A stretch of 64,000 bases of DNA, taken from contig JASANC010003080.1 of the NCBI GenBank assembly GCA_030248135.1, positions 51,933 to 115,932 on the forward strand. The letters are read 5' to 3'. Below the pieces are notes generated by a model. That model was not told the DNA's origin and did no database searches. It worked only from the letters and a program-made list of their open reading frames with translations. This DNA is from Theristus sp. LFF4_11. Lineage: Eukaryota; Nematoda; Chromadorea; Monhysterida; Xyalidae. Every line of letters starts with the position of its first letter. Within the stretch, counting starts at the first letter, position 1. Shown one piece after another: positions 10,223-58,200 of the stretch. A program made the translations under genes and the position numbers.

Positions 10223-13200
10223 TCAAACTCCAGATGTCACCTGATGGTTCATCACATACCAATCGTGAAAGTACATCAGTATACAGAGCGGCTGTCCCAG
10301 GATTAGCGACAACCAAACGACGATGTTGCCCGGTTTACCGCCTGCTAAGACGGACTTTGTGAGCCAGCTTAGTGGGATCTGCGCCAGCATGCCACCGAAT
10401 GCCCACAGTCGAAACATGACCAGGGGGATGCTGATTAGGTACTCGTGTAGGAGGGCGGAGACGACGAACACTGTGGTGGCGGCCGCGAACGACGAGAAAC
10501 CGACCCTGGGCAAAAAAGTGATTTTTGGGTAAAAATTTTGGGCAAAATGGGCAAATGTTTTGGGTAAAAATTTGGGCAAAAAATTAGCTCCGGTGCCAGA
10601 CCAGATCGCCATCTTTGGTGTATGAGAGTGCAATTTTGTCGACATCAATTGTTTGCCACATGATATATTTCCGTCGTTTCTGAGTTGATTGATTCTCAAG
10701 CCACATCATGGTGTTAGTTAGGTTATGAGCAGCCCGGTATACACAGAAAGCCAGGCCAAATGTCGTCGCGAACCTTGCTTCCGTTGACCTAGGTCATGTG
10801 GCCGATTACCTACAGTCGAACTCTAATTTACAGGGGATCAGCTGACACGTTGGTGATTACGGTATGCATGCTTTCTGTGCAAACCAAACTCCGCCCCACA
10901 GCAATACCTGCACAGAAAACATGCATGCACGTAACCGACCACCAACCAATCAGCTGATTCCCTATAACTTAGAGTTCGACTGCATCATCAATCCTACCTG
11001 ATCATCGGCTTGTAGATGTGCCTGGCCGCCCAGCGGTGCACGGGGATATTCCAGTTGGCCCAAAAATACTGCAGTGTTTCGCTGTTCCACCAGTCTCTGA
11101 AAAAAAACCAAATTTCTCGATTTTTACAATAATAACGGCCAGTCGTGAGAACTCTGTCACACAAATACTGTCAAATTATTCGGTAAATCCGTCAGGCGTT
11201 TCGCCAATTATTCGTTGTACGCCGACACCGTTTGGACTCGTCAGCAACGATCGGTGTCACAGACACTTGAAAATGGACACTTTGGAGTACACATGTGATA
11301 AACGTAACAAGAAACCAAAAAACTACAAAAAACCGTCACCTATAAAACTCGCGATCCGCGAACGTCAGCAACTCCGCCTGCAGGTTCAGTATCGAATGGA
11401 ACAGACAATAGAAGCCCAACAGCCAGACGGCGTGATTCGGCACGGCCAGTTTTAGGAGACGCTCCATCATGCGGCCGAACTCCATGTTCACTAGCGGTTC
11501 GATTGAGTTACGAACGATCGGCTCGATCCATTGCTGGCCTGCAGTGGATTCGGGCTGTTTTCACTCGGGTTTGACGTTAAAAATGTGCAAGTTGTTGATT
11601 GATTGATTTTCGAAATTGACAAAGATTTACCGAAAACCATGCATGAATTAACGAAGCGGGTGGGACTTCGGCTAGGTCGTTAATTCACCGAAACACTAAT
11701 CGAGTCTTTTCACCCCGACAGCAAGACCAAGACACCAGAGCATGATACCTTCCGGTGTTCAAAACCGGTGATGAGAAGCTAACAAAATGAAATTTGAAAA
11801 CAAAAATAAAAAGACCACGCAGCCCAACCAGCAGCGGCCATCAGAAAGACGAGTCCAATGGTTTCGAGCGATCGTTTGCCGACAAACCACCATCGAACGC
11901 ACGGACTCCGCGGGAAGTTCAGCTCGTAGCACAGTGTGGGCGCGAACATGAAGTAGTACAAGTTGCCGAGCGTCAGATTGTCCGGGTAATGTAGCTGTGA
12001 CAAAAAGTGGCTATTTTTTCTTTCTTTAACACCAATGCGCCCGCATAATACAACGTGTGTACATGTATACATGTGTTTATACAACGGCTATGCACCTTGT
12101 TCAAATGCAAACACAGTGACTCGATTTGATTACCTGAATTGCCTTCCGTACCAAACTGATTTCGAGAATTTTTTCTCTCGGAAATTTCAAAGAAAGTCTC
12201 TCTGTATTGGTTAATAAAAGAAAGCGTATTTACATGCAACTAATTGCTGCACAAAAAACAGCTTTCCAAAAACAAAACAAAAAAAAACCCAGAAAATCCA
12301 CCAAAAAAACCAGCAAAAAAACCGACCACCGGCTCTGCCAGCTGGAATGGCCGCTTTCGCTTCTGCTGACTCGCATGATGATTGTGCTTCTTCGAGTGCC
12401 TTTGACGGGCCTCACTTCTCCGGTCCGCATTCGACGACGTCTCATTGTCATCGTGACTCCAGGCCGCCAGAACACCGTTCTGCTGATGTGCGTTGCTCGA
12501 TCGTATCGCCTTTCGACACCAGTAGTTCACATGAGCGTAGGAGATGAATTTCAGTGCGACGCACACGTAGGCCATCATTGTGCCCACTGTTGGGATCTGT
12601 GAGAATTTGGGGAATCGGGGTGAAAGAAAATTTGTGGGTTTACTATAACTGTAGAATTCAGTCGAACATTTAGACGAAAACGTTTACTTGCGCCTAAATA
12701 GGTGTTAGAGACACGGAAACTTTTTGATGACACCATTAATCGGACACAGAAATCAAGTCATATGCTGTAAAAATACGAGCTTTTCATGCGCAGCAAGCCA
12801 GATTTTCAGATTCACTAATCGCGTTACGTGCGTGAAGAGATGAATCAATACTGAATTTCAAGCGCCTTCCGCATAAAGCAAATGACGTCATGTCATTTCC
12901 GACACGTTTCAATAAACGCACAATATTATTTGATGCATCGTGTTTCTACTTTCTGCACGATAAAATACTCATCTCATCTTTTCTCCTAGCTCTTTCGAGT
13001 AACGAGGTAAACAACAAGACGATCGAACAACCAAACGCCTACAGGGTGCGGCCGCCGTAGCACGATGACGATTGGTGGCAGCGACAACACCGCAGTCACG
13101 ATGCCACCCTGTAGCAAGGCACCGGTGCGCTCGGAGATGTGGCTGGAATCTGAAAAAAAATTCGATTTTCCATCTCTAGACGCATTTAGTGGCAAGCGCT

Positions 13201-31048: not shown

Positions 31049-32536
31049 ATGGCTGAATCGGTGCGTGCCAGACTGCTCAATTTTCGTCAACAGCAGCAGC
31101 AAAGCATGAAGCCGCAAGACAACGACAATGAAAATGAAATCGAACACCACAATCACGCCAGCAGTTGCAGTAATTCTCCATTGGTGAGTTATTCGTTTTC
31201 AAAAGTGTTTTTTTTTTGTTTTTTGCAAATCAAATTTGGCAGTTTCGATTGGTGTTTTTGTTTGTTCGTGAATTCGACATTTGACAAAACGAATTTTTTT
31301 TCGGACCACAATTTCATGTGCGGTTGGTTGGCTGCAGATTGAGGGCACTGGCAATCGCAAAACTACAGTTTCAAGATCAGTTTGTTGCATTTTCAGCTTT
31401 CCAGTGACGAGAAAAGGTCAGAGATCGAAGCGCACTCCGACAATGTGCAAGGTTCACGCTCAAATCACCACCATCCGCCGTCTTCTTGGTGCCGTCGATG
31501 GTGCGGTGCCGTGAGCGAGTTCTTCGATCCATTCTCAAATTGGTTCGTGTTCGTGTGGTCGTGTGAGATATCAAGATTCGTTTTGTAGTCGTGTTTTTGG
31601 TCAGTCTAAAGACCAGATTACGTGGGCCAGTGTCATATAACAATGATTTAAGAAACAATTCTGATGCATTTCTGCATTTTATACAGTCGAACTTTAAATT
31701 ATAGGGAATCATCTGATTGGTTGGTGGTCACGGGCATCCAGAAAGCATGCATCACGTGACCACCAGCCAATCAGCTGTTTCCCTATAACTTTGAGTTCGA
31801 CTGCACGGAGAAACTCAACTCAACCAATCAAGCACATGCCAGGTGCTCCAGCCATCCGCACGTCTGCACGTCGCTGACGCTCACATTCTGGCTTGTCGCG
31901 TTTGTGCTCGCGTATCAACTGGACTTTGTCGCCGTCGTCGTTCTCTTGTTCGTCTTGTTCGCGTTGTTCAAGTGGGGCTTTCGAACGAAACCGCGAGCGC
32001 ACGGTGAACCGTCCGCTTATTCGGTGCGGGTTTAGTTTGTTGGAATTCATGAAGCAATATTTGGTGACCGTGTGGCTATGTTTCAACACAGCTATGCGTC
32101 ACTAAGTACTGCTTCATGAATGCGCTTTAATTTTCTCAATCTTTCAATCTATTCATCGCGAACACAACGCGCTTAAAGGCAATAAGTCGAAAGTGATCAT
32201 ACCTGTTTTTTAATCGTGAGCGTTTTTTGCTGTTTTTGTTTGGAAAAGAAACAAATGCGGAATGCCACTTCATCTGGACGATTTTCAAGGTCTGCGCAAA
32301 CCGCACACTTTTCTCTCGATCTTATGATTCACTCATATTCAACTTAACTCTTACTTTACTTGAACTGGCTGAACGCAACGCAACAACAACCGAATGAAAC
32401 CGAATAGTTTGCAGTTCTGCAGGTTTTCAATGAGAACTGCGAGCGTATCACGGGCACGTTCACGGCTGAACAGTTTGAACAGAATTTGCGAAGAGGCGGC
32501 GGGTTGGCGGGTGGTGTTGGGTTGATGACGTTGTGA
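31049..32536 (+). CDS. SAYSD1: SAYSvFN domain protein, SAYSD1 homolog (4 exons, 191 aa)
   Basis: Exons 31049-31183, 31397-31542, 31843-32023 and 32423-32536 close in phase and give 191 aa (human SAYSD1 183 aa). The protein opens with a short helix, MAESVRARLLNFR, as in the family, followed by a polar, Gln/Asn-rich linker. A hydrophobic hairpin follows (LTLTFWLVAFVLAYQLDFVAVV split across two segments, then LLFVLFALFKWGF), next the SAYSVFN motif, divided by an intron as SAYS/VFN, and a tail with ITGTFTAEQFEQNLR. In mammals SAYSD1 is an ER membrane protein that binds UFM1 and ribosomes in translocation-coupled quality control. An AATAAA at 32759 is a plausible poly(A) signal. Confidence 0.87.
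31684..31804. mobile_element. Palindromic MITE family P in a SAYSD1 intron
   Basis: Ends are tacagtcgaactttaaatta and its complement, gtt.cgactgca. Inner arms include atctgattggttggtggtcac. It lies between the second and third SAYSD1 exons. Confidence 0.8.
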
Positions 32537-34666: not shown

Positions 34667-37600
34667 ATGACCAGCAAACTCTCACCGCTGCTCTGGAAGA
34701 ACTTCGTCTGGTGTCGGCGGCATCCGTTTCGCACGGCGCTGTTCTACGGTGAACCGCTGTTGTTCTGTTCGTTCATCGCGTTGATCTTGAAGGACGGTGT
34801 ACCACGAAACGCGGACTGCGCTCTCCAGCCGGCCGTGTTGCCGATCAGTCATCCCGCATTGTTCGTGACGTCGTTGGTGTGCAACGATGATGACGCTTGC
34901 GTCGGTCACCGCGACACGCCGCCACCGACGGAGTACGTCAGTCGGTGGAATGGGGCACGAGCAACGTCGGCACCGGTGAATGCGAATGAGACCGAATCGT
35001 TCTTGTGTCCGGGTGAGCGGTTTTTTTTGTTTTTTTTGTATGTGCCATCCATCTGGCTGATATGTACAACTACAGTCGAACTCAATAAAATGTGGAATCA
35101 GCTAATTGTTCGTCGGAGGAGAGGCTGCTCACACTCCGCACCCTTCTTTTTTCGTGGATCTGGATTTTATTGAAACGTGTTTTTTTTTGAATGAGTGTGA
35201 ATTTCCAGCACCCTTTTCATGCTAAAAATAAACTCAAAGGGTTGGAGAACTGCGAAATTTAGATTTTTTTATTTAACAGCTCAAAATGCATTTTTTATTG
35301 ACGACGACGACGTCGTCGTCGCTTAATTTTTGCGTTTGAACTTAAACACAAAAGCCTGAAAGGAGTGCGCTGTGCATGGTTTGCTGCGTGCACCAAGTAA
35401 ATGAACACAGCAGCTTACCAAAAACAACTTGAAAACAGTACCGAAGGCGAAAGCAAATTTTCGAGGGGGGGGGGGTGCGGAGTGTGAGCAGCCTCTCCTC
35501 CGCCGACCAATCAGCTGATTCCACATTTTAGTGAGTTGGACTGTAGCTGATTGGTTGGTTGCACTTTGCACACACGTGCATGCATGCTGTGCAGGCATTG
35601 CTGTGGAGGCGGAGTCTACCTGCACAGAACGCATGCATCAACTAAACGTGTGTGCAACCAACCAATCAGCTAGTTGTAAATCAGCCAGATTGACTGTGTG
35701 TTTATTTCAACTCGCCACTTTAGCCGTTGAATGTGGAGGTCGCGAAAGACGAACCAAACATATGGCGTTGCACAAAACATATTTTGTCCACAAACAAATA
35801 GACGAAAAGTCAAGTGATTGAGACTTTCCCGACCACCGTGACTGTGTGCACTTTGGTTATGAAAAATCAAATGTTACACAGTTTAGTTATGCAAACTTCT
35901 TGACTGACTGAGGACAAAGCGGCGTTCAATTATTGTCATTCAAAAGCAACATCGTGTTTTTTTTCATTCATCAGGATTAACGAAAGAAGCCGGCACGCGT
36001 CAGCTGCTTCTGGCTGTGCGATCCGCTTGTTTCGAAAGAAACGAGGATGTTCGCTACCGTACTGTACCAGCGATCGACTTCGTGTTTCGCGGTCAGATAC
36101 TGTACTACCCGAAAACTGCGGTCACCGACCGCGTCATGGAGAGAACCGTCCGAGTGTTGGATCGCATAAATACGCTGAAAGTTTGTGAAGTCAAACTTGT
36201 TACACAGTGGTTTTGATCAACAGGATTCCTAATGTAAGCGAAGAAGTCAGTCAACATTTGCTGATGAACGAACAACCAAACAAACAGGAGTTCGGACTTT
36301 TTTAGCTGGGGTTAAATGCCAGTATGCGAACAGAACACTGGATTGGACGTTTCTGTTATGGCAATCTGGTGGAGCTTTTCTGTTACTGACAGTCTATGCA
36401 GTCTTAGTTGGGTTGGGATTTGATCCCCCTCCCCCCGTGGAAAAGAATCTGACGTGCTAATGCACGTCACACGACCCAAGGCAGAACAAAATGCCGATAT
36501 TCACTTGTTTTTTTACGAACATACGGTATGGTCGGTTAAACATGACAGCTTTTTTCAGGGTGCAAGGAGCGCGCGAATTTTGAATGAAAGAAAAAAGACG
36601 TTCAGAAACTGAATTGTGTGACAAATTTGACGCGTTTTTTTAAACTAATGGATTATCCCCGCGCTATTCTGTTCAATCTTTATCCCTTGATCACGTGATT
36701 GGGAATTATGTTGGCTTTTTTGAAAAAAGACAACTCCTAGTCTGCGGCTGATCCCGCCTTGAGGGACTGCCTCATTTATTCGGCCATACTGTACAAACCA
36801 TTTTCTTGGCACACTGCAATAAACGATTTCAGTTCGGGCAGCTGCTGTTGAATTCGACCGGCCGACTAGAGCGGAGTCTCGCCGAGCTGGCAATCGCGGC
36901 CAGGTGCTACCAATCGCTGGCCGATCGTGTGATCGGCTTCGACAACGAAACGTCCGCACTTGAGCACGGACGCTCGCTGAACAAAAGCGTCGACATCGTC
37001 TGGGGCATGGTACAGTTCGATTACGACAGCGACATCCACGTCGACACCGTGCTGGCCTACAAACTCGTCATCCCCTACCTGATGCGTCGACGCACCTCGA
37101 CGGTGTACCTGCAGAGTTTGATCGAGTTCGCGATCGTTCGGGACGTTTCAACAACCGGATTGGCCAATTCTGAAACTCCGGACCGAAACTTCATTCTGAA
37201 TCGCCTGCCGCGTCGCTGCCGCAAGGACTCGAACGTCTACAACCAGTTCGGCGGCATCATGTACTCCGTGTTCTCGCTAGGCCTGATCGCCGTCGTCTAC
37301 ACCGTCTCGGGTGAAATGTGCCACGAAAAGGCGACCGGACTCCTCGAGTTCCTACTGATCGCCGACGTGCCGCGTTGGATCGTCCGTCTCAGTTGGTACT
37401 GTTTCGCGGCATTCTTCATCGTCACCGTCACCATCACCGCCGACCTCGTGCTCGTGCACAGCTACAGTGATCTGATCGAGCACAGCGACACGACGCTGCT
37501 CCACTCGCTCGCGTTCGCCTATTCGCTCGCGCTCGTCAGTCTGTGCTTCTTCGTGTCGAGCGTGACGCCGGACGCACAGCGGGCGTCCGTCACGATGCTC

Positions 37601-40600
37601 GGCCTCCTGATGCTCGCGTATCTGCTGACCGGCTGGGGCAACATCGTGCCGGATGTCGGCTACGACGGCGGGCGTCTGTTGTTCGTGCGGGCGTTGTGCG
37701 CGGCGCATCCGACCGTGTGCATGATCGTCTGCTGCGCGTACGTGATGGAGTGGGAGGTACAGGAGCGAACGTTGGGATGGTCGAACTACGGACAATCGCC
37801 GGTCGACGGCGACAAACTCGGCGGAATCGGCGAATTGACCGGCTATTTCTACGGGCACATCGTCGGCTACATGCTGCTGAGTTGGTACTGCGACAATGTG
37901 ATGCCGAGCAAATATGGATTCCGACAGCCGTTCTACTTCTTCGTGCAACCGTCATACTGGAGGAGTCGTTCCATCGCTGCTGAAAACGACGATGCGAACA
38001 ATAACAACGTGGCTCCACCGGGTAGAAACGTCGCCGACATCGAGGTCAACCAAGAAGACACGAAGAAACCGATCGGCATCGTGTGTCGCGGACTGACGAA
38101 ACGATACAACCGCGGCAACAAAGCGGCGGTCGACGGTTTGACCGTAAACTTTTACGCGAACGAAATCACGGCGTTCCTCGGGCACAACGGGGCGGGCAAG
38201 TCGACGACGATCAACATGTTGACGGGCATGCTGTCGCCGACGGCCGGTGTCACGATGTTTTGATTATACCGCGTTTCTGAGGTCCCCGCGCGGGGAGGTA
38301 ACCCTACCGCCTAGTACCCGCACGTTGTTTCAACTATAGATTGCCCAGTCCACGAATGGGGAGTTAACCCTATCGCCCAGTACCCGCACGGGGGGGGGCT
38401 AACCAGAGATTGTTGAATTGCCCGCAGCTGTTCTTCCCGTTAATATAATTGGTTAACTTCCCATGCGGCGACTAGTCCAAATAAGATCAAATAATCCTTA
38501 TGCGGGGAAACAGAAACGGCGGGCAAACACAAAAAATCGTGACATCGGCTCCGCATGGATCAACGGGCGCGACATTCGCTCGGAGATGCGCGTCATCCGC
38601 CGCTCGCTGGGCTTCTGCCCGCAGTACGACATCGTATACGACGAGTTGACGGTCGCCGAGCACATGGTATTCTACGGTCGACTGCACGGTCTGTCGACCG
38701 TGGAAATCGCGGAACAGTCGAGGTCACTCCTGAAACGAATGTCGATGGACGGCGCCGTCGAGAAGACCGCATCGCAGCTATCCGGCGGCATGCGTCGCAA
38801 ACTGTCGATTGCGGTCGCGTTTCTCGCGCGACCGACGACCGCGATTCTCGACGAACCGACCTCGGCGATCGACCCGTTCTCGCGACGCGCCATCTGGGAT
38901 CTGATCCTACAGTACAAACGCCAGTGTACGGTACTGATCTCGACGCACTACATGCAGGAGGCCGACGTGCTGGGCGACCGTATCGCCATCGTAAACGACG
39001 GTCTGTTGAAGTGTTTCGGTCGACCGATGTATCTCAAGTTGAAGTACGGCGATGGGTCGTTCGTGAAGTTCGCGCATCGTGAGGCGATCGACAAAGCTGC
39101 TGTGACGAACGAACTGCAACAGGTGCTGCCGATCAGTCTCGTCTCGTCGAGTAAGACCGAATCAACCGTCTCAGTGCCGCTCGAGTACACGAAAACCGAG
39201 AAAATGATACAACTGTTCGAAACGATCGAACAACACCAGGACGAATGGAACGTGGACTCGTTCGGATTGTCTGAATCAACAATGGAGCAGGTGTTCTTTC
39301 GGGTAGCCGCTGAGAAACAGCAAGTAATAGACGTGAATAATAGTGAAAAGCAAGCGGATAAATCAGAGAAACACGACGAAAACGGCACCACCACACCGCC
39401 GGCGGAAATCGGCTACGAGAAATGCGACGGCTTGACGTTCTACCTGCTGCAGTTCTATGCTATCCTCGTCAAGCGGGTCTATTTGAGTGTTCGAAGCGTG
39501 AAAACGGTCGTGTTTCAGCTCGTTATGCCCATTCTATTTATACTCACGTTGATTTGGCTGAACGAGCTGGTCGCCACGATACTTCCGGACACCGGCAAAC
39601 TGGCACATCGCTTGTGCTCCGACAACGAACTGAGCCCGAGGCTGGTTGTCATTGACGATACAGGGCCGTCGTCGACCCGTTTGCCATTGGAATTCACAAC
39701 GATGAAACGACGCTCGCCAATCACTAACGCAGCAAGAATGAACAGCCTGCCGAATAGTGTGCTGCGCTTCGGACTTGGACCGAAATGCACCGGCAGCAGT
39801 AGTTCACGGGACGAAAACGAAAACAATAATGAGACGACCTTGGCAGTCTGGGCGACTGTGGCGCAATCGAACGACACCTCGCACGCGTGCGATTGCCAAT
39901 CGTGTGCGGACTCGGCGAAAGGCGGACCGACCGTCGCACGACTGAAACTGAACACTGGCGAGGAAGCGCTGAATTTGTTCGGTCGAAACGTCACCGATTA
40001 CCTGCTGAAGTCGAACGAACGATACTTTGTTGGAGGACTGTCGACGTCTGAGACCAAGTATCTGGACGAGACGACGCTACTGCGGCTGTTCGAGTCAATA
40101 GTCAGTGAAGCCGAGAGATTACGCAATAGCAACAACAATCAAGCGACCGCAAATATCGCTCAACTGGCCGCAGAATACGGAATGCAACTCAACCCGAATC
40201 GAATGAAAAGACAAGCGCTTCGGCCAGCGTCAGCAGTAGTATCACGATTGAATACGACATCGGCTGCCCCCGCAACGAATGCATTCTCAATAGAAAATGC
40301 TGACGTGACGCTGGTCATATCGCGACTGTTGGCCAGCGGCATGTCACTTGAACAACTGCTGACTCAGTTGCCGATGATTCCACGCGAACTCGCCGACTAC
40401 TTGCGTCTGTTCCATCGTGCGCCCGAACTGTCCTACACGATCTGGGCCGGCATCAGCACCGTCCAGGAGCGCCGGCGCACGTTCTACGAGCGCCAGACAG
40501 AGGACATTCGCGTCACATTCGTGAACGCCATCTTCAACAGTCTACTTCGCGCGGAAGTGGTGATCGCGAATCGCTCGACGCGCGATCCGTCCGACTACGC

Positions 40601-43600
40601 GATACGAGTAACGACGGAAGAGATGATGCTAGATGAGAGCGTCAACTTTCAGCAGCTGATCTCCGGTCTGACGCTGGCGTTGTTCAGCAGTTTCGCGCTT
40701 GTAATGCCGACATTTAGCGTTCTATCGGTCATGGTCGCCGAACGGGCGACCGGCAACAAACGTCTGCAACTGGTGGTCGGCTTGAGCGGCGGCGTCTACT
40801 GGGCGGCGAACTTCCTCTGGGACGTGCTGCTGTTCGGTGCCACTGTGCTCGCATTGATCGCCATCATGCTCCTACAACCAGAGATCTTCAAGCTCGACAT
40901 GGGCTCGTATTTCGTCCTGTCGATGGTGTTCGGCGTCTCGATGATACTGTTCAGCTACGTCGTCAGTTTCATCTTTCGAACGTCCCGCTTTGCGATTCTC
41001 CTGATTGGCATGTGCACGTACGTGCTGGCGTTTGCGTCCCTAATCATCTACGTGTTCCGCGACGAGTCCTGGTATGCGACGGTGAACAACGCCTCGCAGT
41101 TGTTGCCGCCATTTTTCCTCAGTTCCACCGTTGCCGTGTTGTCCGTTTACGAACTACTGCCATTCGACGGCCTAGACCACCCGCTCAGTTGGTCGATGCT
41201 CGGACCGTCGATCGCGCGATGTGGCGTGTTCGCGTTGTGCATGTTGATGCTGTTGGTCGTGCTCGAATACGGTCTTGTCGACTACTTGAAGCATCAGGTC
41301 GAGATTCGTCTGAGCCGCCGCTACAGTGGTCAACTGAAACCGTCGCCGGACTCGATTGACTCGGACGTGCGAAATGAGGCGACCACGGTGATGGAATCGC
41401 TGCGCAGCCCACAGAAGCCGTTCATATTGACCGTGGCGAACATGGGCAAATTCTACCGTAGTTCAAAGCGACACGCCGTCAAGGGCGTGACGTTCGGCGT
41501 GCGACGCGCGGAGTGCTTCGGGTTGCTCGGGGTGAATGGCGCCGGCAAGACGACGCTGTTCCAGGGGCCAGTTTTGTAGAAAAAGCGTTGTGGGTCCAGT
41601 AGTGCTATACCAGTGGAGCCCCCCTGAAGTGGTACACCAGGGGAGCCCCCTGAAGTGGTACACCAGTGGAGCCCCCTGAATGAAGTCATGAAACATGTAC
41701 AGTATCCGTTTTTTTCTTGCTTGCAATATGAGAAAACGGAAATGTGTTGTCCGCGCTGAAATGACATTACTCAGAATTGGCTTAGGCTTAGGGTTCAAAT
41801 GACAATTTATTCCGGCACTCACTGATGTGTAGCACTATTGGACTGCAACGCGCTTACAAAACTGGCCCCAGATGCTCTGTAGCTTCGCGACACCGACCTT
41901 CGGACGAGCCTCGATCGCGGGTCACGAGCTCTTCGGCGGGCGGCGGGCGGCGGTCGCGCGGCACATGTCCTACTGCCCACAGAGGGACGTCCTGTTCGAG
42001 ACGTTGACCGTTCGCGAGCATTTGCGGCACTACGCTCGATTGCGCGGCATCATCGGCAACGACCAGGGAACAGTTTTGTGAAAGCTTTTGTGGTCCAATG
42101 GTAGTGCCGCTGCACCACTGAATACGTTGACTAACGTTACTCACGGTTTCAACTCACGTTTTTTACAACAACGTTTGAGTTTTAATTACTCTTGTGAACT
42201 GCGATGTTTTGCAGGGTTTCATGCTGCTCAGTGGTGTAGCGCCCCATTTGAACTACGCACGGACAGTAAAAATTTTCGAAGTGGTGTCCTGTGTCCGTAA
42301 GCGACATAAAAAACCGACGATGGTTTTGCTTGTATACTCGTTGCTGATGAGGTGCATTTAATTTTGGAACACCGCGCGGGACAGAAAACCCGGCCGTGGC
42401 ATGGCACCGGACGCCACTGCGGACATTTTTCTAGCGTGTACAGTCGAACTCCAAATTATAGGGAATCGGCTGATTGGTTGGTAATTACGGTATGCATGCA
42501 GGCATTGCTGTGTGGGCGGAGTTTGGTTTACACACACCGTAATCACATACCGTAATCACCAACGAATCACCTGATTCCCTACAATTTAGAGTTCGACTGT
42601 AAGCCTTTCACAAAACCGTCCCCACCCCAGACCGCCGTCGTGCAGTCGATCATCGCCGAAGTCGGCCTATCCGCGTACGCTGACCGCGCGGCACGAGCGC
42701 TCTCCGGCGGCAACCGGCGCAAACTGAACTTTGCGATCGCGATGTTGGACTATCCGGATGTGATTCTGCTGGATGAGATGACGACTGGAATGGATCCGAA
42801 AGCGCGACGAGGCGCCTGGAATTGCCTGCGCAAGGCGCTGACGATGGGCTGCTCTGTGGTGATCACGTCGCAAAGCATGGAGGAGTGCGAACAGTTGTGC
42901 AGTCGACTGGTGATCATGGTGAATGGGACGCTCAAGTGCATCGGCGGCGTGCAGTATTTGAAGGTGTTGATGCTGTTTGGTTGTGGGAGTTTGGGTGAAT
43001 TGATTTTAAAGATTGGAGTTTGCTCAAACACACAACCGTCAGGACTGCGCAGCGCAACCTAGTTGGCGGGCGGGCGTTTATAAGCCTGATGTATAGTACG
43101 ATGTTGTTATTTCGGCGATCTACAGCCATCACTGCGCTTTGGCTTAAATTTGCGAATAATCGGACTCATCAGAAAAAAAAATCAGAAGTACGGTATGGCC
43201 GATTAAACATGGCAGCTTTTTTCAGGGTTCAAGGAGCGCGCGAATTTTGAGTGAAAGAAAAAAGATGTTCAGAAACCAAACTGCGTGCCTAATTTGACAC
43301 GTTTCTGAAAACCAATGGATTAACCGCGCTATTCTTTGCATTCTTTCTCCCTTGCACACATGATTGGGAAGTATTGTGGATCCCTCCTTGGCTGCCCACT
43401 CTTCAAGTGGTCCTGATTTCTAGTATTATCGGCACTTGACCTTAGAGCAGACACTCCAAGGGGGTGCCTCACGCCAGATGCAGTGCGGCTTAGGCCACTC
43501 ACTGATCGCGGCGTCGCCTCACTAGCACTGGTCACAACGTGAGGACTTTTGGTACTTCTACTTCTAGACTTCTGACCTTCCTGGCATTTCAACATGGACT

Positions 43601-45122
43601 TCTTGTTAGCATTACTCACAGAACTGGTTGTTAGAATCGCAGTGTTAGAGTCACACATGCGTTATGGCCTCTCACTACTCGCTTTCTCCCTCTAGTCTTA
43701 CTGAAATAATAATAAAAGAAACAATAAACAAATAAACTATTGCAGGTTACTTACGGTTCGAAGATTTAAGCGAGGCCGGCAATGTTTACACCTGTCGCTG
43801 TTGGCGCAGGCAGTGAGTTGTCGCCCAGGTAGCCCAGGCGCCTCTACGTCAGGCGCAGTCCTGGACGGATCGTGTAGTCGCCTTTGATGTGGGACGACCA
43901 CACGGTACCTTTGCTCCTAATCATAAGACGAGGGGGGTGCCTCACGCCAGATGCAGTGCGGCTTAGGCCACTCACTGATCGCGGCGTCGCCTCACTAGCA
44001 CTGGTCACAACGTGAGGACTTTTGGTACTTCTACTTCTAGACTTCTGACCTTCCTGGCATTTCAACATGGACTTCTTGTTAGCATTACTCACAGAACTGG
44101 TTGTTAGAATCGCAGTGTTAGAGTCACACATGCGTTATGGCCTCTCACTACTCGCTTTCTCCCTCTAGTCTTACTGAAATAATAATAAAAGAAACAATAA
44201 ACAAATAAACTATTGCAGGTTACTTACGGTTCGAAGATTTAAGCGAGGCCGGCAATGTTTACACCTGTCGCTATTGGCGCAGGCAGTGAGTTGTCGCCCA
44301 GGTAGCCCAGGCGCCTCTACGTCAGGCGCAGTCCTGGACGGATCGTGTAGTCGCCTTTGATGTGGGACGACCACACGGTACCTTTGCTCCTAATCATAAG
44401 ACGAGTCCAATCGGTGTTGGTTTCTTCGTTTATTGTGATGTCGGATGCAGAAATACAAAGAACTGTTGCAAGGACACAAGGTTAAATGCACAAAAAGATG
44501 GTAAACCAATAATAAAAGAGATGTTTAACTATTACAATGATGGTGTGTGACAAAATAAATAAAATAGTTTAGCATTCCAGTTGAGGAAAGAAGTCGGTGC
44601 CAGGTGTGGACCTGACAGTATGTTGGCATTTTTGAAAAAGACAGCTCCTAGTCTGCGACTGATCCCACCTTGATGGACTGCCTCATTTATTCGGCCATAC
44701 TGTATGTGTGAACTGTTGCTCTGAACAGCTGAAGCCTTGTTTCACACTGACTAGGAACACATGTTAACAAATTACACCACTTTCTCAAAACACCATTCCA
44801 GGACAAATACGGCAACAACTACAACATCAAGTGCAAGCTGCACGTCTCCGCCGCCGATTCGGGCGACGGCGACAATCTCGCGTTGCGCTCAAAGATGACG
44901 GACATTTGGGGCGCTGATTGCTCGGTCACGGAATCGCACGTCGGCTACCTTGAGGTCTGTGTGGCCGCCCGTGACATTCGTCTGTCAGCGTTGTTTCGAG
45001 CGATGCATCAGTTGAAGCGCGAGTTTGCGATCGACGAGTTTTCGGTGTCGCAGACAAGTCTGGAGCAGGTGTTCGTTAGCATGGTCAAGGACGAACAGTG
45101 GGAGGATCAACCGGCCTCGTAG
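34667..45122 (+). CDS. ABCA-type full ABC transporter
   Basis: Exons: 34667-35012, 35975-36180, 36833-38246, 38548-41564, 41872-42066, 42631-42963 and 44802-45122. They give about 1943 aa, normal for ABCA proteins, which move lipids across the plasma or endosomal membrane (C. elegans CED-7 belongs here). The N-terminus LLWKNFVWCRRHPF is typical. TMD1, NBD1 (GHNGAGKSTTINMLTG, LSGGMRRKLS, ILDEPTSAIDP), a large loop and TMD2, then NBD2 (GVNGAGKTTLF, LSGGNRRKLN, LLDEMTTGMDP) and a tail with QTSLEQVFV follow in order. NBD2 has Met where DEPT is usual (LLDEMTTG). Both NBDs are interrupted by inserts with non-GT-AG boundaries (38247-38547, 41565-41871, 42067-42630). Removing them restores the family spacing exactly. 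The gene is intact only if these are spliced. Confidence 0.9.
35071..35545. mobile_element. MITE family B (475 bp) in an ABCA intron
   Basis: Ends tacagtcgaactcaataaaa and its complement. It carries the gacgacgacgacgtcgtcgt palindrome and gcgctgtgcatggtttgc, as in the copy at 23635-24428, but lacks part of the right arm. A family-P MITE (35545-35698) abuts it. Confidence 0.82.
36522..36793. mobile_element. MITE family A immediately before an ABCA splice acceptor
   Basis: Full-length copy, tacggtatggtcggtt to attcggccatactgta. It ends 39 bp before the exon at 36833, so it sits where the branch point would be expected. Confidence 0.82.
38247..38547 (+). mobile_element. Inverted-repeat insert 1 in ABCA NBD1 (non-canonical intron candidate)
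   Basis: Needed join: PTAG-SAWINGRDI. The left edge reads cggtgtcacgatgttttg and the right edge caaaaaatcgtgacatcgg, which are near-complements. The possible boundaries are GT-CG, TG-GG, GG-TC or CG-AT; none ends in AG. Stop codons follow at once if it is not removed (ATG TTT TGA). Inside are two related segments, one containing ctagtacccgcacg and the other cagtacccgcacg. Confidence 0.75.
41565..41871 (+). mobile_element. Inverted-repeat insert 2 in ABCA NBD2 (non-canonical intron candidate)
   Basis: Needed join: TTLFQ-MLCSF. The left edge is ggggccagttttgta and the right edge is tacaaaactggcccc followed by AG. Best boundary is CAG/GG...CAG/ATG, which is GG-AG. CAG flanks both sides. The next bases (aaaaagcgttgtgggtccagt) match insert 3. 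An internal about 30-bp repeat containing tggtacaccag is present. Confidence 0.8.
42067..42630 (+). mobile_element. Inverted-repeat insert 3 in ABCA NBD2 (non-canonical intron candidate)
   Basis: Needed join: IIGNDQ-TAVVQ, which keeps the spacing of the human ABCA segment. The left edge is ggaacagttttgtgaaagc and the right edge cctttcacaaaaccgtcccc, then ACCCCAG. Best boundary is CAG/GG...CAG/ACC, again GG-AG. It is homologous to insert 2 at its left end (gttttgtgaaagcttttgtgg, split by one or two gaps). A family-P MITE (42439-42601) is nested inside. Confidence 0.78.
42439..42601. mobile_element. Palindromic MITE family P nested in insert 3
   Basis: Ends tacagtcgaactccaaatta and its complement. 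The inner arms include gctgattggttggtaatt. Confidence 0.82.
43189..44704. mobile_element. MITE family A interrupted by a nested TG..CA element
   Basis: The left part runs from tacggtatggccgatta to gattgggaa and the right part from tgttggcatttttgaa to ggccatactgta. Joined, they match the copy at 36522. The 1243-bp insertion between them is described separately. It is in the last ABCA intron. Confidence 0.85.
43375..44617. mobile_element. Nested LTR-like (TG..CA) element with 4-bp target duplication
   Basis: It begins TGTGGATCC and ends CCTGACA, and GTAT flanks it on both sides (43371-43374 and 44618-44621). Most of it is two adjoining copies of a segment of about 474 bp (about 43459-43932 and 43933-44405) that differ by very few bases. 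Each copy carries the start of the same minus-strand reading frame (MCDSNTAILTTSSVSN...). I see no reverse transcriptase or integrase, so it is non-autonomous, for example a solo or internally duplicated LTR. Confidence 0.65.
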
Positions 45123-49200: not shown

Positions 49201-52200
49201 CAAGCCTTTTTGGTGAAGTGGCATTGACTTAAAAAGAAAAAACAGTAACGTTTACTGATTAATAACCCTGAAGAAAATTTACCTTGTGCTGCCGTGAAGT
49301 CGTCTACAATACAATATTTTTTAATGTATTTAAATAAATAAAAAATGCGAAGTTTATGATTTTGCTATTTTTACCCGTTCACCCTAACCTAAGTCAAGCC
49401 TTTTTGTATGTGAAGTAAGATTGAATAAAAAACATAAAAATTAACGTTTTTTTCAATTACCCGATTTAAAAAGCTAATGCTTCTTTTACCCGTTTACCTA
49501 AGCCAAGCCTTTTTTGCAAAGTGAAAATGCGAAGTTAATGATTTTGCTATTTTTACCCGTTCACCCTAACCTAAGTCAAGCCTTTTTGTAAGTTAAGTAA
49601 GATTGAATGAAAAATATAAAAATTAACGTTTTTTTTATTAAAAAATACCCGTTTTAAAATGCTAATGCTTCTTTTACCCGGTTACCCTAACATAAGCCAA
49701 GCCTTTTTTCTAAAGTGAAAATGAATAGAAGAAACAAAAAAAGTGACGTTTATAATTTCGTTTTGCAGTCATTGCTTCTTTTTACCCGTTTACCCCAACA
49801 TGACCCAAACATTTTGCAAAGTGAAAATGAATGGTAGATACCATTTCGACCCAATTAAAAAACTAACTTTTTTCAGAGATGGTTTTGTTACATCTTTCGC
49901 AGTCGCTCGTCAAGTTTTGAGCAGCAACAATTGCCAGTTGCCCATCGTGCGTTACGTTGAAATTATTGCTCATAACCATGGAGTATCAATTTGAAAATGA
50001 AACATGGAGTATCAATTTCAATGAAATTTACTTGTTTTGAATCCAAAGTGCAACTTGCAATGCCAATGTCGATGTGCGTTTTGCAACCCGATTTTTAAAA
50101 ACAAAAAAGTTCAAACTTTTTTCAATGACGGTTTTGTTACATCTTTCCCAGTCGATCATCAAGTTTTGATCAGCCACGCTTCCATTTGCCTATGCTGCGC
50201 TGAACGTCTCTGTGTTGACCAAAGAGTATCATGATGACTCCAGCATCAAGAGCGACGCTTTGAGAAAACAATCTCAACTGGCATTATTAAAAAAATAGGT
50301 TAAGGAAATTGAGATGGAGTTTTCTTAAATAGCAAAAATGGGCGCCAATTCAAAAGTGTGACGGACAGACAAATTGTAAATTTAGTAGTAACTAGCCAAT
50401 TGACCCGAGCGTATGTGGCTTAATCAATGCCAAGCCTTTTTGGTGAAGTGGCATTGACTTAGAAAGAAAAAACAGTAACGTTTACTGAATAATAACCCTG
50501 AAGAAAATTTACCTTGTGCTGCAGTGAAGTCGCCTACAATACAATATTTTTTAATGTTATTCAAATAAATAAAAATGCGAAGTTTATGATTTTGCTATTT
50601 TTACCCGTTTACCCTAACCGAAGGCACCCCTTTTTGTAAGTGAAGTAAAAATGAAAAAAATATAAAAACTAACGTTTTTTTCATTTACCCGTTTTAAAAA
50701 GCTAATGCTTTTTTACCCGTTTACCTAAGCCAAGCCTTTTTTGTAAAGTGAAAATGCGAAGTTTATGATTTTTCTATTTTTTACCCGTTCACCCTAACCT
50801 AAGTTAAGCCTTTTTGTATGTGAAGTAAGATTGAATAAAAACATAAAAATTAACGTTTTTTTTCAATTACCCGTCTTAAAAAGCTAATGCTTCTTTTACC
50901 CGTTACCTAAGCCAAGCCTTTTTGCAAAGTGAAAATGCGAAGGTTATGATTTTGCTAGTTTTACCCGTTCACCCTAACCTAAGTCAAGCCTTTTTGTAAG
51001 TTAAGTAAGATTGAAAAAAATATATAAATTAACGTTTTTTCCGGTTTTTTCATTAAAAAATACCCGTTTTAAAAACATATGCTTCTTTTACCCGGTTACC
51101 CTAACATAAGTCAAGCCTTTTTTCTAAAGTGAAAAATGAATAGAAGAAACAAAAAAGTGACTTTTATAATTTCGTTTTAAAGTCATTGTTTCTTTTACCC
51201 GTTTACCCCAACATGACCCAAACATTTTGCAAAGTGAAAATGAATGGTAAATACCATTTCGACCCAATTAAAAAACTAACTTTTTTCAGAGACGGTTTTG
51301 TCACATCTTTCGCAGTCGCTCGTCAAGTTTTGAGCAGCAACAATTGCCAGTTGCCCATCGTGCGTTACGTTGAAATTAAATATTGTTGAAGTTGAATACG
51401 TTGTTTTGAATCAAAAGTGCAACTTGCAATTGCAATGCCGATGTCGATGCGCGTTTTGCAACCCGATTTTTAAAAACAAAAAAAGTTCAAACTTTTTTCA
51501 CAGACGGTTTTGTTACATTTTTCCCAGTCGATCATCAAGTTTTGATCAGCCACGCTTCCATTTGCCTATGCTGCGCTGAACTGTCTCTGTTGACCAAAGA
51601 GTATCATGATGACTTCAGCTATATGATGAGAGACGTTTTGAAAAAAAACAATCTCAACTGGCATTAATAAAAATAGGTTAAGGAAATTGAGATGAAGTTT
51701 TCTTAAATAGCAAAAATGAGCGCCAATTCAAATTTCATGAAAATGACAGGGACAGACAAATTGCATTTTTAGTATAATAGATAGATGATTACTCGCATTA
51801 CTCGATTAGTCGCAGACTAGGAGTTGCCTTTTTTGTCAAGAATGCCAATATCAATCGTGACAAAAAACGAACAGAATAGCGCGAATAAATTAATCAAGTT
51901 GAAAAGACAATTAATTTGATACACAATTGGCTTTCTGAACTGCTTTTTCTTTTATTCATAATTCGCGCGCTCCTTGGATCCTAAAAAGATGTCATGTTTA
52001 CTCGGCTATTTCGTTCATTTTGGCAGGGGGTGCCAAGTCGTGAAGCGGGGTGGGGGTGCCTACGAGGGATCCCAGGTTTTGGGGGTAGATCGGGTGTCAC
52101 GGGAACCCCCCCCCCCCCCAACTACCAGGCGCAACTTTGTGCTAGCTGACCAGAAAGGCCCAAAAACGATACCACTGCGATATGGCCAGAATGAGAAAAA

Positions 52201-55200
52201 ATGTGTTAAAAATGTTGCTCACACATTCCGGCTTTCAGTATGGCAGAATAAATAAAGCAGTTCCTGTATTCTCCATCACGGCGGAATTGGTCGCAGATTT
52301 GAAAAACCGATTAATTTGATGCACAATTGGCTTTTAGAAACTATTTATTCTTTTATTCAAATTCTGCGCGCTCCTTACATCTTGAAAAAATGTCATGTTT
52401 ACTCGGCTATTCCGTTCATTTATGAAGTCAGGAGTAGGTCAGGGGAACGCAGCTTGCTGACAAGCACGAAGTTTGACCGAAAACAATAAAAAAATACAAA
52501 GTTTTCTAGCAACGATGGAATCCGTTCCCCTAAGGACCCCGCCCTCCTAAGCGGGAGCGATACCGCTGCGCTATGGCTGCAACGAGAAAAAACACGTAAA
52601 AAAAGTTGCTCGCACATTCGGTCTTTTATGCGGATTTAGAAACATTACTTGTATGAAAAAGTGCCGTTATAGAAATGTGCGTGAAACACGGGCAAAACGG
52701 CTATGGCCTAAACCAGTGTGTTTCAGAAATCGATAAGTTAACTTGGCATACATTAAACGTGAGGAGGGGTGGGTAGAGAAAAAAATTCCAGAATGCATGT
52801 TTTCTACAGAAAAATGACTGGCGAAAGTGGGAAACTGAAACGAAAACCAAAAACAACTGAGCAAAAAACAAACAAACCACACCACAACCACTGCACTGAG
52901 ATCGTTTAATCAAGATATCATTAAACAATTTCGTTGGTTTTTAGGTTGTACGACTGAACTGAATGCGTTTACAGACGCAGAAACAAAACCAATTTCATTC
53001 ATTATGTGGCAATTCAAATTAGCCCAAGAAGGGTTGGGGAAAATCCGGGTTTTTCATTAAAAAAATTTAAATTTTTTCTGCAAGTCAGGTTTGTTCGAAG
53101 CGTCTCGTCGAGCTGAGTTCAGCTAATATATTTTCAAAAACCGATCCGTTTAACTATCAGAGCGCAAATCGTGTTTTAAAATTTTTTTGTCCATTTCATA
53201 CAGTCTATCTCGCTAATTTATGCAACTAGCTGATTGGATGGTCATTGCAATTCTCAGCGCTGATTGGTTAGTCATGAGCAATCTCAGCGCTGATTGGTCA
53301 GTCATGAGCAATCTCAGCGGTGATTGGTTGGTCATGAGCAAATCTCAGCGCTTATTGGTTGGTCATGGTTGGAAAAACACGTATTCATCAGTAAAACTGG
53401 ACAATTTTTGACGTGTAATTTAACAATGAGTTGTTCTTAGTAGTTTCTCTTTAAAAAAACTAAAATTTTCTGGGTTCCAAAATCCCTGCTGACTGTGGTG
53501 GCAAAGTCCGCATCCTCTCTTTGCCCCCGCCCCCTATCTCTCCCAAGACACTTAGTTTCAGCCAGCTTTGCTATCTGGCACATGGAAAGGGCCCGCTCTT
53601 CAAAAACACCTACCGTATTACCCCCATTAAACCCCCCCCACCATTAATCCCCCCCCCCCACCAATAAACCCCCACCCCCCCGACCAGTTTCCGAATAATC
53701 CCCCCCACAAATAATCCCCCATGGGGGATTATTGGAGACCTGTTTGAAACACATACCCAGCGAATTCAGTGGCTGGTTGCAGTGAAAATGATGAAATTGT
53801 GCTACCAAAGGCCCCAAATGGGTGAGTTAATAGTAATTTCATCACAAAAGGCTGTTATAAAAGGAAATTTCTATGTAGAGTAGAAGTTTCTGCGACTTTC
53901 TTGCCTGACATGCAATGTATTTTTGCCATTTTTCAACAAACCCCCACCCCTAGAATTTTTTTGTAAATAAACCCTCCCCCCCCACCAATAATCCCCCCCA
54001 CCAATAAACCCCCACCCCTAAAAGTCGCTGACGTATTAATCCCCCATGGGGGTTTATTGGGGGTAATACGGTATGTCTGAATTTTGGAAACGAAGAGAAA
54101 AACACGCACCAGAAATGGTACCACATTTTTAGGTAGGCTGTACCTACGGAGTGGGGGAGGGATAAGTTGAACCCCCTCCTCCGGTTGATTGCTGGGGATG
54201 TACCGGAACCCATGCCCCTTATTGCAAGTTTGCAATGAAAACGCTAAAATTTCAAAAAATCGCTAAAATAGTTGTTTGTAAATACAAATAACCTCATATT
54301 TTTCCCAAATTATGCAAATGGAAAGCGAAAAAACATCCTTTTTAACAAAAATTTGTGATTTGTAAACAAAAAATGGTGTTTGAACAACAAATTGTGATTA
54401 CCGTAAAGTCTTGCATATAAGGTTGCTCCCACTTATAAGACCCCACCCAAAAGTGGGCGGAGTGTCACACGGCGGGAAACTCAAAAATTCAAAATTTTGA
54501 CTTGGTCGAAATTCCACCTTGTTTATACGGCCGAACTTCGCAATCTTCGCTTTGTAAGACCTCCTCCCACTTGTAAGGTCTTTGTCACACAAAATTCCAT
54601 TTTTTCCACGAATTTTTGATTTACAAATTTATATAAGGAGACCTTATGTGCAAGACTTTACGGTATTTGGACATTTTGGCAGGGGGGTGCCAAGTCGTGA
54701 AGCGGGGTGGGGGTGCCTACGAGGGATCCGAGGTTTTGGGGGTAGATCGGGTGTCACGGGAACCCTCCCCAACTACCAGGCGCAACTTTGTGCTAGCTGA
54801 CCAGAATGGCCCAAAAACGATACCACTGCGATATGGCCAGAATGAGAAAAAATGTGTTAAAAATGTTGCTCACACATTCCGGCTTTCAGTATGGCAGAAT
54901 AAATAAAGCAGTTCCTGTATTCTCCATCACGGCGGAATTGGTCGCAGATTTGAAAAACCGATTAATTTGATGCACAATTGGCTTTTAGAAACTATTTTTT
55001 CTTTCATTCAAATTCCACGCGCTCCTTACATCTTGAAAAAATGCCATGTTTACTCGGCTATTCCGTTCATTTATGAAGTCAGGAATAGGTCAGGGGAACG
55101 CAGCTTGCTGACAAGCACGAAGTTTGACCGAAAACAATTAAAAAAAATTAAAAGTTTTCTTGCAACGATGGGATCCGTTCCCCTAAGGACCCCGCCCTCC

Positions 55201-58200
55201 TAAGCGGGAGCGATACCGCTGCGCTATGGCTGAAACGAGAAAAAACGCGTTAAAAAAGTTGCTCGCACATTCGGTCTTTTATACGGATTTAGAAACATTA
55301 CTTGTATGAAAAAGTGCCGTTATAGAAATGTGCGTGAAACACGGGCAAAACGGCTGTGGCCTATACCAGTGTGTTTCAGAAATCGATAAGTTAACTTGGC
55401 ATACATTAAACGTGAGGAGGGGTGGGTAGAGAAAAAAATTCCAGAATGCATGTTTTCTACAGAAAAATGACTGGCGAAAGTGGGAAAGTGAAGCGAAGAA
55501 CCAAAAACAACTGAGCAAAAAACAAACAAACCACACCACAACCACTGCACTGAGATCGTTTAATCAAGATATCATTAAACAATTTCGTTGGTTTTTAGGT
55601 TGTACGACTGAACTGAATGCGTTTACAGACGCAGAAACAAAACCAATTTCATTCATTATGTGGCAATTCAAATTACCGTAGTCCAAGAAGGGTTGGGGAA
55701 AATCCGGGTTTTTCATTAAAAAATTTAAATTTTTTCTGCAAGTCAGGTTTGTTCGAAGCGTCTCGTCGAGCTGAGTTCAGCTAATATATTTTCAAAAACC
55801 GATCCGTAAAACTATCAGAGCGCAAATCGTGTTTTAAAAAATTTTTGTCCATTTCATACCTTTTATTTCATACATTTCATTTAAAAAAATTTCATAGCAT
55901 ATCTCGCTAATTTATGCAACTAGCTGATTGGATGGTCATTGCAATTCTCAGCGCTGATTGGTTAGTCATGAGCAATCTCAGCGCTGATTGGTTAGTCATG
56001 AGCAATCTCAGCGCTGATTGGTTAGTCATGAGCAATCTCAGCGCTGATTGGTTGGTCATGAGCAAATCTCAGCGCTTATTGGTTGGTAATGGTTGGAAAA
56101 ATACGTATTCATCAGTAAAACTGGACAATTTTTGACGTGTAATTTAACAATGAGTTGTTCTTAGTACCGTATTACCCCCAATAAACCCCCATGAGGGATT
56201 AATACGTCAGCGACTTTTAGGGGTGGGGGTTTATTGGTGGGGGGGGGGGATTATTGGTGGGGGGGGGTTTATTATACAAAAATTTCTAGGGGTGGGGTTT
56301 TGTTGAAAAATGGCAAAAATACCTTGCATGACGACAGGCAAGAAAGTTGCAGAAACTTCTACTTTTCACAGAGATTTCCTTTTGTAACAGCCTTTTGTAA
56401 TGAAATTACCATTAACTCATCCATTTGGGGCCTTTGGTAGCACAATTTCACCAATGTCACTGCATTCAGCCACTGAATTAGCTGGGTATGTGTTTCAAAC
56501 AGGTTTCCAATTAACCCCCATGGGGGATTATTTGTGGCGGGGGGATTATTTGGAAACTGGTCGGGGGGTGGGGGTTTATTGGTGGGGGGGGGGGGATTAA
56601 TGGTGGGGGGGTTTAATGGGGGTAATACGGTAGTTTCTCTTTAAAAAAACCAAAATTTTCTGGGTTCCAAAATCCCTGCTGACTGAAGTGGCAAAGTCCG
56701 CATCCTCTCTTTGCCCCCCGCCCCCCATCTCTCCCAAGACACTTAGTTTCAGCCAGCTTTGCTATCTGGCACATGGAAAGGGCCCGCTCTTCAAAAACAC
56801 CTATGTCTGAATTTTGGAAACGAAGAGAAAAAACACGCACCAGAAATGGTACCACATTTTTAGGTAGGCTGTACCTACGGAGTGGGGGAGGGATAAGTTG
56901 AACCCCCTCCCCCGGTTGATTGCTGGGGGATGTACCGGAACCCATGCCCCTTATTGCAAGTTTGCAATGAAAACGCTAAAATTTCAAAAAAATCGCTAAA
57001 ATAGTTGTTTGTAAATACAAATAACCTCATATTTTTCCCAAATTATGCAAATGGAAAGCGAAAAAACATCCTTTTTAACAAAAATTTGTGATTTTTAAAC
57101 AAAAAATGGTGTTTGAACAACAAATTGTGATTACCGTAAAGTCTTGCATATAAGGTTGCTCCCACTTATAAGACCCCACCCAAAAGTGGGCGGAGTGTCA
57201 CACGGCGGGAAACTCAAAAATTCAAAATTTTGACTTGGTCGAAATTCCACCTTGTTTATACGGCCGAACTTCGCAATCTTCGCTTTGTAAGACCTCCTCC
57301 CACTTGTAAGGTCTTTGTCACACAAGATTCCATTTTTTCCAGGGATTTTTGATTTACAAATTTATATAAGGAGACCGTATGTGCAAGACTTTACGGTATT
57401 TGGACATTTTGGCAGGGGGTGCCAAGTCGTGAAGCGGGGTGGGGGTGTATTGTATATATACCGTATTTGTTCTTTCATTCAAATTCCGCGCGCTCCTTAC
57501 ATCTTGAAAAAATGCCATGTTTACTCGGCTATTCCGTTCATTTATGAAGTCAGGAATAGGTCAGGAGAACGCAGCTTGCTGACAAGCACGAAGGTTGCCG
57601 AAAACAATAAAAAAAATTAAAAGTTGTCTTGCAACGATGGGATCCGTTCCCCTAAGGACCCCGCCCTCCTAAGCGGGAGCGATACCGCTGCGCTATGGCT
57701 GCAACGAGAAAAAACGCGTTAAAAAAGTTGCTGGCACATTCGGTTTTTTATGCGGATTTAGAAACATTACTTCTACGAAAAAGTGCCATTATAGAAATGT
57801 GCGTGAAACACGGGCAAAACGGCTGTGGCGCTATACCAGTGTGTTTCAGAAATCGATAAGTTAACTTGGCATACATTAAACGTGAGGAGGGGTGGGTAGA
57901 GAAAAAATTCCAGAATGCATGTTTTCTACAGAAAAATGACTGGCCAAAGTGGGGAACTGAAACGAAAACCAAAAACAACTGAGCAAAAAAAACAACCAAA
58001 CAAACACAACCAGCTGAGCTGAAAAAAATTTCCCGGTGAAATTGAAAAATTGAAAAAAGCGACTTGTGCTGTTACTGCCGCATGCAAAAAGCTTTTTTTT
58101 AAATTTATAATCAGAAAAAAACATGTTTCAGCGTACTGCCGTCTGTTCCCATCGCCTGGTCACTGTAAACGCGACTTGATCACGGAGCATTCTCGATGGT

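Follow-up and report, generated by a model that had tools for sequence, protein, structure and literature searches.

Three inserts break both ATPase domains (the nucleotide-binding domains NBD1 and NBD2) of an otherwise open ABCA-type transporter gene in the nematode Theristus sp. LFF4_11. These inserts, together with two similar ones in a second gene, are probably removed from RNA as end-pairing, introner-like introns that lack GT-AG ends. The gene lies in a window of 64,000 nucleotides, which is the whole stretch of DNA analysed (contig JASANC010003080.1, positions 51,933 to 115,932 of the forward strand; assembly GCA_030248135.1, 159 Mb in 3744 contigs). Sequence similarity identifies two of the three inserts as copies of one old family of miniature inverted-repeat transposable elements (MITEs), here called F1. 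A preliminary description of the window had placed the inserts at 38247-38547, 41565-41871 and 42067-42630, and this layout of the gene is confirmed.

34667 to 45122, plus strand: ABCA-type transporter gene, seven exons with the three inserts counted as introns; start and stop codons located by eye
35013 to 35974, plus strand: ordinary intron 1, GT-AG, acceptor read by eye
36181 to 36832, plus strand: ordinary intron 2, GT-AG, acceptor read by eye
38245 to 38548, plus strand: insert 1 including both CGG flanks, with the exact junction GT-CG at 38247-38547 or a shift thereof
38243 to 38262, plus strand: left inverted repeat arm of insert 1, pairing with 38530-38549 at 18 of 20 positions
38530 to 38549, plus strand: right inverted repeat arm of insert 1
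41562 to 41564, plus strand: CAG to the left of insert 2, one half of its target duplication (both flanks read CCAG)
41565 to 41871, plus strand: insert 2, assigned to F1, with the right CAG, in the GG-AG reading, downstream of Walker A in NBD2
41872 to 42066, plus strand: exon of 195 nt between inserts 2 and 3
42067 to 42630, plus strand: insert 3, assigned to F1, with the right CAG, in the GG-AG reading, junction placed by hand
42439 to 42601, plus strand: MITE of another kind nested within insert 3, with arms of 56 nt at 89% identity
42964 to 44801, plus strand: ordinary last intron, GT-AG, acceptor read by eye

The middle exon matches ABCA1, ABCA4, ABCA7 and ABCA3 structures in phmmer searches, and the best named relatives of the gene are proteins of Plectus sambesii. 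In-frame stop codons are present in the inserts, and open reading frames (ORFs) end inside them. Junctions were placed by aligning the gene to two Plectus ABCA proteins with introns allowed and no preference given to splice sites. For inserts 1 and 2 the free alignment puts introns at the coordinates given in the preliminary description. For insert 3 it slid to AT-AA within a poorly conserved stretch; once the CCAG duplication is collapsed (GG-AG), a count by hand finds RGI and VGL as far apart as in Plectus. The equivalent junctions are CG-AT, GG-TC, GT-CG and TG-GG for insert 1 and CC-CC, CA-CC, AG-CC, GG-CA and GG-AG for insert 2, with no GT-AG among them. These junctions agree with the earlier statement of GT-CG at best at insert 1 and GG-AG at inserts 2 and 3, and at none of the three are they the GT-AG of U2-type introns.

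Exact removal of the inserts gives ABC_tran scores of 111.0 bits for NBD1 and 101.5 bits for NBD2, the best or an equal fit among the readings compared, so that the flanking codons do join to the family sequence as had been claimed. This is the best family fit at inserts 1 and 2, and insert 3 is undiscriminating. In the nearest paralogue (C1502) aligned exons cross all three insert sites. Inverted ends had been reported on all inserts and measure 20 nt at 90% identity in insert 1, 15 nt at 100% in insert 2 and 19 nt at 89% in insert 3. The flanks are CCAG on both sides of inserts 2 and 3 and CGG on both sides of insert 1.

The F1 consensus is 220 bp long with the ends GGGCCAGTTTTATAAAAGC. A genome-wide search for similar ends, as proposed in the preliminary description, gave 59 and 60 matches, 119 in all, with at most 3 mismatches over 33 nt; a reversed control gave 0 and 0. 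The three bases beside 63 strong F1 ends are C in 44 cases, then A in 22, T in 19, C in 17 and G in 5, and then G in 34. The target duplication of F1 is 3 bp and leans to CNG but is not strict, and small indels blur the register. Insert 2 has 83% identity to the consensus over 183 bases in an indel-rich alignment. Its arms have 87.5% and 87.1% identity, the left arm of insert 3 has 88.6%, and at the right end of that insert 14 of 18 bases (78%) agree. The claim that inserts 2 and 3 share their first 35 bp or so holds with mismatches, and comparing the two whole inserts directly gave no match. Reading the CAG flanks as a target duplication is right for these two inserts, although CAG is one form of the CNG-leaning duplication and insert 1 has CGG. 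F1 is an old, probably inactive MITE family of about 220 bp, resembling NuwaI/PHIS elements in its target duplication.

Insert 1 stands apart, and a transposon origin, proposed for all three inserts, is upheld only for inserts 2 and 3. A DNA search of the genome found no relatives of insert 1, the one match being the insert itself, and its end pattern gave 183 matches against 114 in the control, which is not far above. Introners are expected to have many copies in the genome, which is what inserts 2 and 3 have and insert 1 has not. Its assignment to F1 was rejected with just 15 aligned bases, and membership of another abundant family is unsupported by the self-match and by ends near the control level.

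The second case is an unrelated gene, chosen solely for holding an F1 end.

G000:C98:4335-7367, minus strand: SEC14-like gene (locus L057) whose CRAL-TRIO domain holds two F1 elements

One F1 copy lies upstream of the middle exon and the second begins 163 nt on. The middle exon alone scores 23.2 bits against CRAL_TRIO and the joined piece 38.5 bits. The exact product of a shorter piece scores 40.3 bits, above six alternatives (28.7-34.2 bits): one hand-picked in-frame GT-AG product for each junction (34.2 and 28.7), products with one codon fewer (33.9 and 32.2) and products with two extra codons (34.0 and 32.2). In the alignment with SEC14-like protein 4 no gap falls at either junction; among 170 candidate homologues of the product from a large protein database, none reached E≤0.001. 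The flanking triplets, read by eye, are TGG/CGG and CTG/CCG, left and right differing by one base, and because of these flanks the exact reading has non-AG 3' ends. The same pattern is thus found in two genes.

Ordinary introns were examined in the ABCA paralogues. Among 73 introns that passed a loose filter, 46 are GT-AG, 2 GC-AG and 25 other; this census covers 11 of 16 stretches (the C2356 copy, with two stretches, and three weak ones were left out) and is noisy, many of the 25 others lying in weakly aligned parts. Of the 24 best-supported introns, which are strongly supported on either side and at least 60 nt long, 21 are GT-AG and 3 have a GT-AG 3-4 bases away when inspected by hand. A search for the spliced leader SL1 that allowed 1 mismatch found none.

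To see where else F1 has inserted, the sequences beside its ends were compared with a coding background. Ten of 72 ends have a flank with a coding score above the 95th background percentile, where 3.6 are expected, and these include the ABCA gene and both ends at L057. Eight further F1-flanking ORFs compared with Pfam gave CRAL_TRIO (L057) and Piwi (L025). Two more loci are possible exonic F1 copies and are not counted here: L052, with a weak DCX match (E 0.0029), and L055 on the minus strand, where F1 is flanked left and right by CTG and lies in an open frame that shows codon bias but has no Pfam match. Many F1 copies are located outside coding exons, and the idea that F1 is an intron-only element was rejected, as copies are also found outside recognisable coding sequence.

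Several of the results weigh against the removal of the inserts as non-GT-AG introns. The exonic sample with family evidence is four copies in two genes, counted with exact junctions. The 24 best-supported ordinary introns give no hint of a generally permissive spliceosome, and F1 copies lie in apparently ordinary GT-AG introns, judged by eye, at L070 (an ABCA paralogue), L021, L025 and L039. Twenty F1-flanking ORFs gave no Pfam match at the cut-off and two weak ones. Because of these GT-AG-intron copies and ORFs, conserved coding exons are not the usual site of F1. At L052 the joined DCX-like product scores 16.7 bits and the right exon alone 18.1 bits. At insert 3 the exact reading and a GT-AG reading are not discriminated (101.5 and 100.0 bits). 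The ABCA protein misses more conserved columns than the mean of its homologues (1.3 for 119 homologues in NBD1, 1.6 for 120 in NBD2), and the position of the switch (H-loop) histidine in NBD2, 42871-42873, encodes glutamine; together these may reflect loosened constraint on the gene. Finally, divergence from a consensus exaggerates the age of F1 if sublineages existed.

The missed columns and the glutamine would suit a dead gene or recent insertion alleles that are never spliced, as would the in-frame stops in the inserts and the fact that any fresh insertion also restores the frame exactly when taken out. The age of F1 speaks against this. In an alignment of 31 rows (those of L024 and L042 overlap), 28 rows diverge from the consensus by 9-21%, L053 by 29%, insert 2 by 30% and insert 3 by 36%, the last two values partly owing to indel-rich alignment. 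Among 59 pieces, chosen by well-kept ends and with 25 pairs with similar flanks set aside, no pair exceeds 88.3% identity over 150 nt except a duplicated segment shared by L024 and L027, and the median is 73.8%; near-identical copies at unrelated loci are thus lacking among those compared. Insert 3 also holds another diverged MITE, whose best non-self match among the sequences compared has 78.5% identity over 177 columns. The ABCA frame has no stop in 1758 codons (the first two exons uncounted), whereas in 300 runs of simulated neutral substitution the frame stayed free of stops in 2.7% of runs at 2% substitution and in none at 5%. Identity between F1 copies from unrelated loci thus reaches no more than 88% over 150 bases, and yet these 1758 codons are open, which makes a dead gene unlikely. 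The ATPase domains miss 5 of 62 conserved columns in NBD1 and 8 of 68 in NBD2, compared with 10 and 7 in the paralogue and 6 and 7 in Plectus protein P0003, so that the gene is preserved to much the same degree as these two nearest kinds, if worse than the average homologue. The same pattern in the SEC14-like gene, where the left and right duplications differ by one base as in old insertions, is also hard to reconcile with recent alleles. Dead genes or unspliced alleles, of which the preliminary description had raised the former, are therefore judged unlikely.

The normal spliceosome might instead use cryptic GT-AG sites and add codons to the product. The preliminary description found no GT-AG among the shifts that the junctions allow, which is correct, but it overlooked readings that add 12, 2 and 2 codons and keep the frame at inserts 1, 2 and 3. 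At insert 1, GTCACG to AACAG (38249-38513) adds 12 codons and lowers NBD1 to 100.8 bits (-10.2). At inserts 2 and 3 the GT lies in the F1 end (CCA or ACA, then GTTTT) and the AG in the right CAG.

41571 to 41871, plus strand: GT-AG reading of insert 2, adding Gly-Pro after Walker A, NBD2 92.5 bits (-9.0)
42073 to 42630, plus strand: GT-AG reading of insert 3, adding Gly-Thr, NBD2 100.0 bits (-1.5)

Published introners of Aureococcus add codons (PMC9860276). At insert 3 the cost is small, and the AG there, scored with a splice-site profile built from 40 ordinary introns, ranks 1/40 and above 91.5% of random AGs. The donors at 41571, 42073 and 38249, on the other hand, all rank 0/40 and above just 17-32% of random GTs, and the AG of insert 2 ranks 0/40. 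The GT at 38247 ranks 6/40, but its partner at the exact junction is CG and not AG. The losses at inserts 1 and 2 also speak against this reading. Of 27 relatives listed, 26 cover the position of insert 2, and none has an insertion there. In the SEC14-like gene the one GT-AG product tested at each junction loses 6.1 and 11.6 bits, and by eye no GT in the element ends pairs in frame with a near AG. Canonical splicing with added codons is possible but disfavoured, and as a general explanation it is improbable to much the same degree as a dead gene.

Excision from somatic DNA, as with the internal eliminated sequences of ciliates, would account for the anatomy, since a short duplication, inverted ends and exact restoration are found there as well, and MITE-derived sequences of this type are reported in Blepharisma (PMC9942856). 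The assembly contains the inserted form, however, and neither locus turned up there as an empty copy. Precise DNA excision of this kind is not known from animals, and this explanation is very unlikely. An assembly error or chimeric join at the insert points, conceivable with 3744 contigs and apparent haplotypic duplicates (C2356/C3310), is the least likely of all, as inserts 2 and 3 share their ends and duplications with a family spread through the genome, and L057 has the same pattern.

Removal as end-pairing introns would proceed as follows. Some F1 copies inserted into coding exons, and the element with one copy of the duplication would be precisely removed from the pre-mRNA, restoring the codons of the empty site. 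The ends can pair over 15-20 nt, which might help by drawing the junctions together. The intron termini would then be leftovers of insertion. Inserts 2 and 3 would have GG-AG, insert 1 would have GT-CG or one of its shifts, and the SEC14-like gene would have 3' ends other than AG. A more specific proposal is that an animal with otherwise GT-AG introns has a separate, hairpin-guided route, in which RNA ends paired by transposon inverted repeats are joined independently of the usual splice-site recognition and exonic MITEs are removed exactly whatever their terminal bases. We regard this only as a tentative idea and rather doubtful. As to selection on end pairing, the arms of exonic F1 copies do not differ clearly from those of other copies, all of which had been chosen by their ends.

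Exons between introners are nucleosome-sized. The exonic F1 pairs are 195 nt apart in the ABCA gene and 163 nt apart in the SEC14-like gene, and F1 copies also seem to cluster (L029/L038, L042), 178 nt apart at L029 and back to back at L042. The spacings of 195, 163 and 178 nt recall such exons, although they are three values alone.

Some further observations concern the ABCA gene and its surroundings. The last intron contains two 300-nt stretches that are 100% identical and start 473 bases apart (43460-44232), by their identity a recent tandem duplication. One and the same ABCA gene, differing slightly in its introns, is present on contigs C2356 and C3310, which are probably two haplotypes. 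The family of the nested MITE, with ends TACAGTCGAACTC, has several copies in the window, also at 10811-10985 and 31681-31806. Elsewhere in the window there are long direct repeats about 2.5-2.7 kb apart at 51938-57909, 78-99% identical and with inverted repeats between them, and a tandem repeat with a 33-nt unit at 3256-3618.

End-pairing or transposon-like introns without GT-AG ends are reported from dinoflagellates, euglenids and larvacean tunicates (PMC7789003, PMC11170887, PMC13326754). Introner elements of Amoebophrya are described with inverted repeats of 8-20 nt, direct repeats of 3-5 nt at their borders and varied non-GT-AG termini (PMC7789003). The anatomy is matched here by arms of 15-20 nt and direct repeats of 3-4 nt. 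More than 60% of the introns in Amoebophrya are non-canonical, with RNA-seq support, and its introners are partly assignable to MITE families (PMC7789003). In contrast, the 24 best ordinary introns here are GT-AG or nearly so, and the inserts are known from DNA alone.

Fritillaria is likewise an animal with a repeated triplet, which often precedes the 5' end of the intron and recurs at its very 3' end (PMC13326754). That triplet is YAY, the main termini are AG/AC and AG/AT, 5% of introns are canonical and U2AF is duplicated in F. borealis (PMC13326754). Here the triplets are CAG and CGG and the listed shifts include no AG-AC or AG-AT; the CNG triplet, the GG-NG termini of F1 and the canonical majority set the two systems apart. 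Nonconventional introns of Euglena gracilis have CCAGG at +3 to +7 and CCTG at -9 to -6 (PMC11170887). They resemble the inserts in non-GT-AG termini, end pairing, ambiguous borders and a 5' CCAG that can pair with a 3' CTGG. However, in the GG-AG reading the F1 consensus has CCAG at +4 to +7 and CTGG at -10 to -7, offset by one and with the last G absent, and insert 1 has neither motif.

Introners in general are repeated elements, many with terminal inverted repeats and target-site duplications, that create introns by insertion into exons (PMC9860276). F1 is likewise a repeated element with such ends and duplications, and its exonic copies may act as introns, but it differs in its GG or non-AG ends: where that source gives rare 5' sites, it names GC (0-50% per family) and GA (0-40%), and GG or non-AG ends are unnamed there. 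The NuwaI group of PHIS (PIF/Harbinger-like) transposons, found mainly in animals, has a 3-bp CWG target duplication (PMC4482050). The CNG-leaning duplication of F1 resembles this, yet CGG and CCG flanks occur too.

No report of such introns in nematodes was found among the listings of an open-access literature search. A study of how nematodes gain and lose introns mentions introner elements as intron sources found by others and cites the Fritillaria work (PMC9169325). If the inserts are indeed removed from RNA as introns, a nematode-like case in which the other sampled introns are GT-AG would make it possible to ask directly if splice-site recognition can be taken over by a transposon hairpin. 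It would also open the question of how insertions into exons escape selection.

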